64,000 nt of DNA from Gemmatimonadaceae bacterium. GTDB taxonomy: Bacteria > Gemmatimonadota > Gemmatimonadetes > Gemmatimonadales > Gemmatimonadaceae. Below the pieces are notes generated by a model. That model ran no database searches and was not told the origin of the DNA. It saw only the letters and a list, made by a program, of their open reading frames with translations. The position numbers were made by a program, and so were the translations under genes. Below are positions 5,476-30,691 of the stretch, in pieces (positions within the stretch are counted from its first letter, which is position 1; every line of letters begins with the position of its first letter). The stretch spans positions 62,001 to 126,000 of the forward strand of contig JBBJNV010000001.1 in the NCBI GenBank assembly GCA_037721215.1, in the 5' to 3' direction.

Positions 5476-5912
5476 ATACACTCAGTCGACGACGCGCCGC
5501 GCGGTGGGATCAGTGCTTGGCACGAAAGCGCGCTTTACGAACTGTTTAACTTTTCGCGAGCTTGGTGAGCCTGCGCGCGCTAGGGGCCAACGGAAAAAGC
5601 AGTTCGTGACACTATTAAGTCGAGACCGTTGTTCAAAGGATGAACTTGCGCTCGGCGATGGCTCCGGCGGCAAGCGAATCGATTGGCTCTTCTTGCCAAC
5701 TATTTTTCGTTGAGCTGAGCCGTAAGTATCAATCGGTAACAAGGCGGCGAAGCTTTTGTTTTTCGGTCGCGAGAACCTTGATGCGTTCATACATCGGCGT
5801 GTGCCTTAGCGGACGTCGTCGACCAGCAAGATCCCGGGCCGACATCATTGCAGCTGTAACGCGATCCTCAAAGACGCTGGGTTTCGAACTCATTCTTTTA
5901 ATGGTGACAGAG
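5476..5912. other. Non-coding accessory spacer
   Basis: No protein here is convincing; the short open frames on both strands have no recognisable motifs or ribosome sites. The sequence is less GC-rich than its surroundings. An ACGAACTG / CAGTTCGT inverted pair flanks about 55 bp near 5536-5607, an imperfect stem of unknown meaning. Confidence 0.4.
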
Positions 5913-6320
5913 CTAGTTTTGAAGCCCGTACACCCAGTCTGTCTTCCCGTCTCCGCTCCATTGCACAATCAACGATTCAGACGAGAGCCTGCCACGCGCC
6001 CGACCGCCGCCGAATACAAATCCGGTGTCCATCCTTTCCCATGAACCAGCCCCGGTTCTTGTCTCGCTCCGGCCTTCAGGCATAAACCGCGTCGTCCGGC
6101 TGAACGTATAGGTGCCGTCCTCGCTGATGACGAACTTCTCGGCGATCAGCAATTCCCTGTAGCCATCGGCAACGCCATACGTCATTGCCGGCAACGCTTT
6201 CCCGTCCCATGTTCTTAGCTGCCAGGCCCCAACGATAGGGTTGGTCGGGGCGGTAGAGTTAGTGCACGAGGCGACTGTCATAGCGATTGCAACAACGGCG
6301 ATCAATCGTGGAATGCGCAT
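5913..6320 (-). CDS. Small lipoprotein, lipocalin-like fold possible
   Basis: The 135-residue product begins with a lipoprotein signal (LIAVVAIAMTVASC, Cys19) followed by a Ser/Thr/Pro-rich tether. The rest reads as short beta strands: IVGAWQLRTW, KFVISEDGTYTF, GRSETRTGAGSWE. The opening 'GAWQL' with later 'GTYTF' and 'GSWE' resembles small lipocalin-like or META-type domains, but I cannot assign a family. It is single, with no operon partner, between two apparently decayed stretches. The ribosome site is weak. Confidence 0.65.
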   Translation of the reverse strand: MRIPRLIAVVAIAMTVASCTNSTAPTNPIVGAWQLRTWDGKALPAMTYGVADGYRELLIAEKFVISEDGTYTFSRTTRFMPEGRSETRTGAGSWERMDTGFVFGGGRARGRLSSESLIVQWSGDGKTDWVYGLQN

Positions 6321-26871: not shown

Positions 26872-28047
26872 TTATGCTCGCCTGACCTTTGCGAGTTTCA
26901 CCAGATCGCCTTCGCAGCCAACACCCAGGTACTGATTTCGAATCCGTCGCACCGTCTCACGGTTGAGGATCGCCGAATGCGCCGCCGGATTCCTGACGTC
27001 GGCAAGTTCCTTGAGGATTGGAGGCAGACTTCCCGTGAACCACGCGCCGCCCTGAGGAACAAGCTGTTTCTTCAACGCGGAATTGACGTTCTCGTTATCG
27101 CCAATGATGATCGCAAGCTGGCCCAGCGACCACGGCCCGCCTGTCGCGACATCCACCGAGCGACCATCGACGTTGACCGTCCGCTCGGCAGCATGTGCGC
27201 GTTCGAGCGATGAGCGAAGAACGATGTTCGACTGTACTTCAAAGGCCTTGGCAAAGCTAAGAACGACGGGTGAAAAATCGAACGAGGCGTCGTTGGCCTG
27301 GTCGCGATACAGTTTCTCCGCAGTCGCGATGAAGGTGCGGGTCCCTGCGTCCAGCCCCGCCCAAAGTTCTTCGCCGAAGTGATTCTCGCGCAGCTCGCGT
27401 TCGGTGGCACCGATGCCGCTGTGCTCGCTGTCGAACTCCACCCAGTAAACCCCGTCAGTAAGCTGGTCGCGGACGTCTTCCTCGAAATACCTCGCACCGT
27501 CTGGCCGGGTGACGATCAACGGAAGGTCGACCATGCCGCCGTAGAGTGAAACGGGCATGCCGTGATACGCAGTGTTGTTCAGTTTCTTCAGCTCTTCGAC
27601 CACCGCAAGCGTATCGTCAGAAACGAGACGCCGAATGTCCCACAGCCGGAACCAGCAGTCGCAGTGAGTATCCTTCCCGCGATAAATTGCAGGAACGTGC
27701 GCGTCGTCGTCGTCCTGGCATTGATCATCGGTTGTTATCTCGCCTACGTGTGCTACGTAGAGCGATCGATAATCGGTGAGATAAAGCTGAATCTCGCGGG
27801 TTGCCGCTCCCTCGTCGTCGATAAGGTCGGCCCCGACCGCGATAATGTCATCGAGGTTTTTGAGCGCTGTCTGACGCCGGGATGACCGGATCTTCCCCCA
27901 CCATACATAGACGTTTTCCTCGTCGCTCTCGCCCTCCCGAAACCGCCGGGCGTTATCGCGCAGAAGCCTGATGTGTGTTTCCATCACGTCAGTTCCGTAG
28001 GATGGGTTCCACACACTAACGAGATGACGGCTAGATGATGTCGTCAT
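26872..28047 (-). CDS. Uncharacterised two-part protein with HEPN-like C-terminus
   Basis: I do not recognise this 391-residue protein as a named family. The N-terminal half (about 1-130) has strand-rich segments around YVWWGKIRSSRR and IQLYLTDYRSLYVAHVGEI, which could be a PUA/EVE-like nucleic-acid-reading fold; this is a tentative reading. The C-terminal half (about 235-391) is helical. FAKAFEVQSNIVLRSSLE and then RNPAAH (Arg352, His357) fit the Rx4H signature of HEPN RNases or RNA-binding HEPN proteins. It has no signal or membrane segment. It follows the AAA+ ATPase by 33 bp on the same strand, so they are probably one operon. Confidence 0.8.
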   Translation of the reverse strand: MTTSSSRHLVSVWNPSYGTDVMETHIRLLRDNARRFREGESDEENVYVWWGKIRSSRRQTALKNLDDIIAVGADLIDDEGAATREIQLYLTDYRSLYVAHVGEITTDDQCQDDDDAHVPAIYRGKDTHCDCWFRLWDIRRLVSDDTLAVVEELKKLNNTAYHGMPVSLYGGMVDLPLIVTRPDGARYFEEDVRDQLTDGVYWVEFDSEHSGIGATERELRENHFGEELWAGLDAGTRTFIATAEKLYRDQANDASFDFSPVVLSFAKAFEVQSNIVLRSSLERAHAAERTVNVDGRSVDVATGGPWSLGQLAIIIGDNENVNSALKKQLVPQGGAWFTGSLPPILKELADVRNPAAHSAILNRETVRRIRNQYLGVGCEGDLVKLAKVRRA

Positions 28048-28080
28048 TGTGGCGCGTAAAAGCGGCGGTTTGTTGGAAAT

Positions 28081-29100
28081 CTAAATGGTTCTCACAATTG
28101 CCACCGCGACCGCGACCAGTGCCAACGCTATACTCAGCCCTGCCGTCGCAAGTGCTGCCTGCGCGGTTTTCCTCCAACGTAGCTCGGCTGCCTCGACCGC
28201 ACGCATCAGACGGTCCTCGCCCGTCTGCTCACGCTCGCCAAACAGCGACTGCTGCATCACGCTCTTGCCGCCGACGACCTCATCTATCGCCCGCTCGAAT
28301 TGCCACTGATGAATTTTCTTCACTGCATCCATTCCCGGCTCCGCTGCTGCCGTGGTCGCCGCCTTGAGAACAGCGTTCTTGATGTCGCCACCGCTGACCT
28401 CATAGCGTTCCGCCAGCAGACGAAAGTTCACGTCTTCACCGAGCGGCGTTTTTGCCGGGTGAACCTGAACCTGCCAGATCTTCTCCCGCTCGTCGACACC
28501 CGGCATCTCGAACAAAACGTGAGTCCGGATGCGCCGCTCGAACGCCGGATCGAAGTTGACGGCCAGGTTCGTCGCGAAAATCACGACCCCGTTGAATACT
28601 TCTAGCTCCTTGAGAAGGACATTGACCACCGTGTTGGATTCGCGCTGATACGACTGAGCCGCGCCCGTCGTTCGGCGGGACGCGATTGCATCCGCTTCAT
28701 CGAAGAACAGCACTGCATCTTCGTCCGTGGCCATTCTGAACACCGCCGCGACATTCTTCGGCGTCTCACCCGCCCACATCGATTCCATCTCGGCGTATCG
28801 AACCGAAAGAAGTTTCTTCCCGAGAGCAGTCGCGATTGCCTCGGCACAGATGGTCTTTCCGGTACCGGGTGGTCCCGCGAAATTGAAGGCCAGACCCAGT
28901 CCGCTCGAGTGCCGCTCGCCCAGCCCCCATTGAGTGAAGATGAGCTCGTGGCTTTTCACCAGACTCAGCGCCTCGTCCAGCGTTGCCCGGGTGCGCGGTG
29001 GGAGAATTACGTCAGCAAAGGTGCGGTGCGTGACGATTGTTTCGACAGCACGGCGACCGCCGATGCGTCCGGCAATGAAATCACGAATTGGAGTTGGCAT
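28081..29100 (-). CDS. AAA+ ATPase with C-terminal membrane tail
   Basis: A 339-residue single-ring AAA+ ATPase of the FtsH/CDC48-like class. Walker A is GPPGTGKT (76-83), Walker B LFFDEADA (131-138), sensor 1 VVIFATNLA (Asn178), and arginine-finger segment FERRIRTH. The last ~25 residues (AALATAGLSIALALVAVAVA) form one hydrophobic helix, so the protein is tail-anchored. No protease domain is present. The start at 29100 (MPTPIRDFIAG) is preferred over an upstream start overlapping the TPR gene, with GAGG before it. It begins 7 bp after the TPR gene and precedes the HEPN-like gene by 33 bp. The substrate is unknown. Confidence 0.9.
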   Translation of the reverse strand: MPTPIRDFIAGRIGGRRAVETIVTHRTFADVILPPRTRATLDEALSLVKSHELIFTQWGLGERHSSGLGLAFNFAGPPGTGKTICAEAIATALGKKLLSVRYAEMESMWAGETPKNVAAVFRMATDEDAVLFFDEADAIASRRTTGAAQSYQRESNTVVNVLLKELEVFNGVVIFATNLAVNFDPAFERRIRTHVLFEMPGVDEREKIWQVQVHPAKTPLGEDVNFRLLAERYEVSGGDIKNAVLKAATTAAAEPGMDAVKKIHQWQFERAIDEVVGGKSVMQQSLFGEREQTGEDRLMRAVEAAELRWRKTAQAALATAGLSIALALVAVAVAIVRTI

Positions 29101-29107
29101 TGTGCAG

Positions 29108-30691
29108 CTACCTCGTTGTTGGACCCCGCGTAAGCGCACTAAGCTTGGCGCGCAGCCCTGCTTCCGTTCTCCGCTCACCCGCCGCCTTCGCAGCGCGCAT
29201 TCCTCCCGCCAGCGCACGATAGCGATTCGGCTCCTTGCGCAGCGTCGCCTGATACTCTACCAGCGCTTCAGACGGTTGGCGGAGTTCCATCAGCATGTCA
29301 CCAAGCATCTCACGCGCAGGCGCAAGCGGCCCAGGCGTGACGGCATTTTTCTCGGTTGCATCCTCCCGCGCCGCCGCCTCGCGCATCCGCGACAACGCAG
29401 AGTCCGCCCGTCCCTGGGCCAGATCGAGCCATGCATGCGCGGCGATGTGCTGAATCGCAACCTGCTCACGCCAGTACGGCTCATCGCGAGCGGCGAGCCG
29501 ATCGCGAATTGTCGCCAGCGAATCGATCGAGCCACGCGCCTTCGCCATATCTCCTGTGCGTGATGCGCCGAGCGCGCGGGCGAAATGCGTCATGGCCTCG
29601 GTCCATGGGAATGCGCTGGCCTTCGGTTCGAGTCGAGCCGCTTCCGCCCACGCTTCACGCTCGAGTGCATATCGCGCCGGAATCGCGGCGAGCGCAAACA
29701 CACCTGCCGAGCCGGGCGCAGCACCCGTGACGGCATTCACGTCGAAGCGAGCCGCCAACGCCGGCAGCTTGTCCACGATGCTCCTGGCCGCAGACTCGCT
29801 TCGCATCTGCAGGTACGCATACGCGGCGTAATCGGAAGCGTGAAGCGCCTCGGCGATGGATCCGGTGCTCATCGCGACCCGAGCCGAGCGGAGGTTCATG
29901 TCTATCGACTCGCGCCACAGGCCGGTGCGGGTGAAGATGTGCGACGGCATGTGGAGGGCGTGCGCTGCTGAAGGAGCGATGGTGGCGTAACTCCGCGCCG
30001 CCGCCGCCGCTTCGGACGCAAGCGCCGGATAGTCGTATGTGTGGATAATGTAGTGAGCGATGCCGGGATGACTCGGCTGATTCTTCCAGAGCGTCTCAAG
30101 AATGCTCCCGGCTTTTTTCTGGCTCGCGTATGTCTTGTCGCCGGGGAGTGCCGAAGCCGCGAGAGAAAGGGCGTGAAAGATCTTTGCTTCGGTATCAACG
30201 GGTTGCTTTGCAACGAGATCTCTCATTGCCAGTTCGTAGGCCGCGATGCGTGCGCGCTGTGGAACGTTCCCGGAATCGCCGTACAACTTCGCGACGGCAT
30301 TGATGTACCCTCGCTCCCGGTCGGTGGCGCGAGCAGCAACGCGGTTCGCCGCCTCTACCGCAAGGCGTCCCTGCAGGAGCTGTTGCGGAGACCGACTGCC
30401 AGCAGCCATCGGATTGCTCCACCGGCTGAGTGCGATTCCCCAGTACGCCATAGCACAGGATGAGTCGGTGGCGATAACGCCTTCGAAGGCCTTGATTGCC
30501 GCACCGAACTCGAACGAGTGAAGTAATGCCACGGCGCGATTGAATTGCGACGTCACGCCGGGATTGCACGATGTTGCGAAGTTGACAGTACCCAGCTTTT
30601 CGGCGGGGGCGGCCGAAGGGTGAATGTGTTCCTGTCCGCTTGCCGAAGACACGAACGCGAAAAGCAGGATTGAAACATAAAGGCGAATCAT
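29108..30691 (-). CDS. Exported TPR-repeat protein
   Basis: A 527-residue protein with a cleavable signal (MIRLYVSILLFAFVSSASG), so periplasmic or outer-membrane associated. The rest is alpha-helical TPR-like. LLHSFEFGAAIKAFEGVI, AMAYWGIALSRWSNPMA and HPGIAHYIIHTYDYP are the best-conserved-looking segments, with APSAAHALHMPSHIFTRTGLW after them. The His-rich HYIIHTYDYP and HALHMPSHIF patterns recur in a widespread but uncharacterised TPR family, in my recollection. It is the first gene of the minus-strand run with the AAA+ ATPase and the HEPN-like gene. The function is unknown. Confidence 0.88.
   Translation of the reverse strand: MIRLYVSILLFAFVSSASGQEHIHPSAAPAEKLGTVNFATSCNPGVTSQFNRAVALLHSFEFGAAIKAFEGVIATDSSCAMAYWGIALSRWSNPMAAGSRSPQQLLQGRLAVEAANRVAARATDRERGYINAVAKLYGDSGNVPQRARIAAYELAMRDLVAKQPVDTEAKIFHALSLAASALPGDKTYASQKKAGSILETLWKNQPSHPGIAHYIIHTYDYPALASEAAAAARSYATIAPSAAHALHMPSHIFTRTGLWRESIDMNLRSARVAMSTGSIAEALHASDYAAYAYLQMRSESAARSIVDKLPALAARFDVNAVTGAAPGSAGVFALAAIPARYALEREAWAEAARLEPKASAFPWTEAMTHFARALGASRTGDMAKARGSIDSLATIRDRLAARDEPYWREQVAIQHIAAHAWLDLAQGRADSALSRMREAAAREDATEKNAVTPGPLAPAREMLGDMLMELRQPSEALVEYQATLRKEPNRYRALAGGMRAAKAAGERRTEAGLRAKLSALTRGPTTR

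Follow-up and report, generated by a model that had tools for sequence, protein, structure and literature searches.

The 391-residue protein described here, encoded in a Gemmatimonadaceae genome, joins a Pua-like N-terminal region to a helical C-terminal domain with an invariant HEPN signature. In relatives, its gene closes an operon that begins with two WYL regulator genes, and its family is patchily distributed over the phylum. We put at roughly 50% the probability that DNA damage or phage-derived single-stranded DNA (ssDNA) induces the protein and that it acts as an RNase effector. The whole stretch of DNA that was analysed, 64,000 nucleotides long, is referred to below as the window.

On the minus strand of the window, genes for a TPR protein, an AAA+ ATPase, the 391-residue protein, an ECF sigma factor and a Ser/Thr kinase with TPRs follow one another in this order (Table 1). 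The ATPase and 391-residue ORFs both look coding by codon-position composition. When ORFs and translations were rechecked, the preliminary description of this DNA proved accurate as to the two ORFs, their spacing, their motifs and the hydrophobic C-terminus. RNPAAH occupies residues 352-357 of the 391-residue protein, and the quoted IQLYLTDYRSLYVAHVGEI lies at its residues 86-104. The ATPase indeed contains GPPGTGKT, VLFFDEAD (Walker B), ATN (sensor 1) and FERRIR (arginine finger region), and the hydrophobic helix claimed for its C-terminus is 19 residues long (mean Kyte-Doolittle 2.5), ending three residues before the last.

Apart from generic kinases, nothing resembling a defence island was found in the window neighbourhood; matches of the neighbouring kinases to PADLOC PD-T4-6 were taken as generic kinase similarity. 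Empty-site comparison through the TPR and ECF neighbours gave no definable insertion site in the genus, because gene order around these neighbours varies within it.

Table 1. Position of the two genes, the upstream TPR gene and the protein features discussed in the text
Feature	Coordinates	Strand	Basis
TPR protein gene	29108-30691	(-)	
AAA+ ATPase gene	28081-29100	(-)	339 aa from ATG; PF00004 5.7e-27
Walker A GPPGTGKT of AAA+	28852-28875	(-)	sequence
C-terminal hydrophobic segment of AAA+, residues 318-336, predicted tail anchor	28093-28149	(-)	hydropathy
HP0729-family gene	26872-28047	(-)	391 aa; NF041917 E 8.8e-33
Pua-like region, residues 44-140	27628-27918	(-)	PF24405 1.4e-5
Predicted C-terminal HEPN-type helical domain, residues 232-391	26875-27354	(-)	AF2 + hhalign
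E244-x3-R248, Ex3[KR] motif	27304-27318	(-)	invariant 31/31
R352-N353-P-A-A-H357, putative catalytic Rx4H motif	26977-26994	(-)	R, N, H invariant 31/31

Family membership and the two halves of the protein

The profile of the HP0729 family (NF041917) matches the 391-residue protein over its full length, residues 8-383 aligning with positions 1-352 of 355. Since the score, 114 bits, stays below the equivalog cut-off (250), the protein is a distant relative, homologous to this family and not an equivalog. No function is attached to the HP0729 family in the literature searched, and the name of NF041917 gives none. Relatives are found in 28 of 298 genomes of the phylum (about 9%). In a 31-member alignment, homologs are 39-69% identical to the window protein, and the AlphaFold2 (AF2) model of the whole protein calculated from these 31 sequences reaches a pLDDT of 91.6. 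Sequence and profile searches of PDB returned no match for either half, and searches of phages, plasmids and viral contigs returned no relatives.

The HP0729-like genes at two loci (L017 and L018) are fragments in which little or nothing of the N-terminal half is left, and they may be decayed copies. A contig titled Candidatus Kuenenia stuttgartiensis and a contig from a genome of the same family (L046 and L096, both 4644) carry the HP0729 gene at the same position; the organism named in the title may be wrong.

A PUA/EVE-like reader domain had been suspected in the N-terminal half, and the PUA-like part of this reading is supported by PF24405, which matches 27 of the 31 homologs at E <= 0.1 (best 8.8e-10) and the window protein at 25.4 bits, slightly under the gathering score of 27. 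The best viral Foldseek match (BFVD) was an ASCH domain, with a low probability of 0.54. Judging by these profile matches, the Pua-like region may read a modified nucleotide or RNA.

For the C-terminal half, the HEPN RNase signature consists of Ex3[KR] and R-polar-x3-H elements (PMC3710099). All 31 sequences possess both an Rx4-6H motif with a polar residue following the arginine and an acidic residue in Ex3[KR], so that the Arg/His pair pointed out earlier is invariant together with the second element. Among C-terminal positions, L219, G225, W229, F239, E244, R248, E270, R352, N353, H357, R370, G375 and G377 are kept in at least 97% of the aligned sequences. Folded alone, residues 212-391 give an AF2 model with a pLDDT of 95.9, mostly helical with a small hairpin insert, and the motif sits at the end of a long helix.

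The HEPN fold itself, expected from the preliminary description, found mixed support. The confident helical model agrees with it, as does hhalign against HEPN_Swt1 (PF18731), which yields a probability of 35% (controls 0.2-0.8%) and an E of 4e-4 over 26 columns near the motif; RN-x-x-AH following an acidic helix is common to both. Foldseek comparison of the whole protein and of the domain with PDB and BFVD, on the other hand, gave nothing significant (Csm6 stands at rank 37 of the PDB list, TM 0.32). HEPN_Swt1 profile matches are weak, 0.0013 at best among homologs and 0.091 for the window protein, which falls below the Pfam cut-off. The window domain further differs from Swt1-like domains in its fusion partner, a Pua-like half instead of a PIN domain or a DUF499 ATPase. 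Because Foldseek offers no significant match, the HEPN assignment draws on the motif, the helix layout and weak profile evidence. We infer from these that the C-terminal domain is HEPN-type and probably a metal-independent RNase.

WYL regulators in the vicinity of relatives

Genes of WYL regulators lie within about 5.5 kb of the HP0729 gene in 17 of about 39 other loci, usually as a tandem pair. The 38 control loci, drawn from the same phylum, have none (Fisher p 1.6e-6). About half of the HP0729 loci show no WYL gene and many contigs are short; as many of them end near the HP0729 gene, the 17 linked loci are a minimum. The genes are tightly packed in the order WYL-A, WYL-B, HP0729, with HP0729 last. 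WYL-B stands upstream of HP0729 on the same strand in ten of the 17 WYL-linked loci, and in eight of nine measurable loci the WYL-B stop and the best HP0729 start overlap by 1-8 nt, which suggests translational coupling, such overlaps being typical of it. Near these loci we found nucleases and helicases, namely RecD (two loci), RecC, UvrD, PDDEXK_1 and AddB/AddA-like proteins, as well as AAA_12 helicases, VWA proteins and HSDR, SIR2 and HNH genes. Helicase-nucleases of RecBCD or AddAB type are frequent in these surroundings. One 5.9-kb contig (L011, G006:C290) carries two HP0729-family copies (307-1479 and 5658-5944), each preceded by WYL genes; the second is interrupted by the contig end.

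In mycobacteria, ssDNA activates the DNA-damage regulator PafBC by binding to its WYL domains (PMC11804915). The WYL pair of the relatives resembles it in having WYL domains and, in WYL-B, also the PafC HTH and WCX domains. Its sensing of ssDNA is putative, and no such pair is found beside the window gene. Phage defence systems are known to come with WYL regulators (PMC9122601).

WYL pairs also occur without HP0729, one of them among toxin-antitoxin-like genes. The link between the two is therefore not exclusive, and such pairs may control several genes, HP0729 apparently among them. In genome G013 (L192, 675-17001) a WYL gene lies amid toxin-antitoxin-like, DUF262-like, SIR2/TIR-like and RecB-like nuclease genes, as judged by eye from translations.

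The WYL-A/WYL-B/HP0729 operon is missing at the window gene, beside which there is no WYL gene. In the tree, the sister of the window copy, from the same genus, is WYL-linked (support 100/99), and so is the next closest lineage, with weaker support (87/79). The window's genome does hold a tandem WYL pair on contig C6 (L190, 6784-9004), 54-78% identical to other copies in the genus; it adjoins a glutamate dehydrogenase gene and has no HP0729 gene beside it. The simplest reading is that effector and regulator became separated in the window lineage, leaving the window gene an orphan copy. Being separated from the pair, the gene is either controlled in trans, possibly by the pair on C6, or freed from that control.

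Possible roles of the protein

Tentatively, relatives of the window gene may represent an undescribed inducible system, in which a PafBC-like WYL pair reading ssDNA would switch on a Pua-like/HEPN RNase encoded by the same transcript, turning an attack on DNA into cleavage of RNA; HP0729 of H. pylori would be another member of this effector family. On the reading we think most likely, the pair, activated by ssDNA from phage attack or DNA damage, would induce the HP0729-family RNase. The enzyme would then cleave RNA chosen or licensed by its Pua-like half, and this cleavage would slow the cell or the invader.

The searches of phages, plasmids and viral contigs, which found no homolog, and the window neighbourhood, which is not a defence island, count against this reading. 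Its main rival is a toxin-like stress RNase, acting solo or under WYL control, that has no anti-phage function: the WYL pair would sense DNA damage and the RNase would slow growth during repair alongside RecBCD/AddAB. PafBC regulates the response to DNA damage (PMC11804915), and RecC, RecD and AddAB-like genes serve repair no less than defence; the failure to find phage or plasmid copies speaks for this rival as well. Patchy presence in the phylum and the HSDR, SIR2 and HNH neighbours, more usual at defence loci, speak against it, and we regard this alternative as possible but doubtful.

Less probable, in our opinion, is a helical C-terminal domain that is non-catalytic, binds RNA or protein and merely carries a HEPN-like motif, the protein being a housekeeping RNA-binding factor. 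Such a domain would explain why the fold match is not significant and HEPN profile scores are weak. It would leave unexplained the invariance of E244, R248, E270, R352, N353 and H357, an active-site pattern, and occurrence in so few genomes is unlike that of housekeeping genes.

The adjacent ATPase and the meaning for the family

The preliminary description had proposed that reader and HEPN effector work under the adjacent membrane AAA+ ATPase as a single defence or stress module. The two genes share a strand, merely 33 bp (28048-28080) separate them and no terminator-like site was found in between. Moreover, both families occur together in six sampled genomes where 2.4 are expected (Fisher one-sided p 0.024, uncorrected for kinship). 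Close AAA relatives are present in 26 of the 298 genomes, again about 9%, and most AAA-bearing genomes are devoid of HP0729. A seventh genome with both families (G006) came from the relatives search. Only in one of these seven, the window's own, are the genes adjacent; in G032 they reside on separate contigs of 0.5 and 1.1 Mb. Elsewhere, none of 26 surveyed AAA loci has an HP0729 gene beside it and none of about 39 surveyed HP0729 loci has such an AAA gene. The recurring neighbour of the HEPN-like gene is the tandem WYL pair, not an ATPase. As homologs of the two genes rarely adjoin, we reject the module, which these data have largely refuted and which we consider very improbable.

The nearest profile to the window AAA+ protein is phrog_3757 (1.5e-49). 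Its residues 19-252 also match IetA (1.4e-31), and it differs from IetAS in having a predicted C-terminal membrane tail and no subtilisin-like IetS partner. Membership in IetAS was discarded, as the protein's 98 bits fall short of the NCBIfam cut-off, 510, and the adjacent genes encode no protease. A hydrophobic C-terminal tail is common to all 24 AAA sequences measured. At the 26 loci elsewhere neighbour genes vary freely, and no conserved partner gene of this family was found across the surveyed loci in the phylum. In many members (the family comprises the window gene at 28081-29100(-), L027-L034 and L144-L161) a variable linker precedes the tail. We judge the AAA+ gene to belong to an orphan family of its own, whose members are predicted to be anchored in the membrane by the C-terminus, and to be a neighbour of the HP0729-family gene with no functional link to it.

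A tempting "membrane ATPase plus HEPN" system is thereby removed and a testable WYL-RNase system put in its place. HP0729 has been counted among 37 highly divergent genes of H. pylori (H. pylori literature). The test for diversifying selection on it was not significant (McDonald-Kreitman P 0.062, NI 2.12; H. pylori literature), and we therefore make no claim of an arms race. In a family known merely as the "HP0729 family", the HEPN active-site signature is fully conserved, and relatives of the window gene share an operon with regulators of the ssDNA-sensing type. If the proposed system is true, it would join the sensing of DNA damage to the cleavage of RNA and would provide the first functional lead for the uncharacterised Helicobacter protein HP0729.
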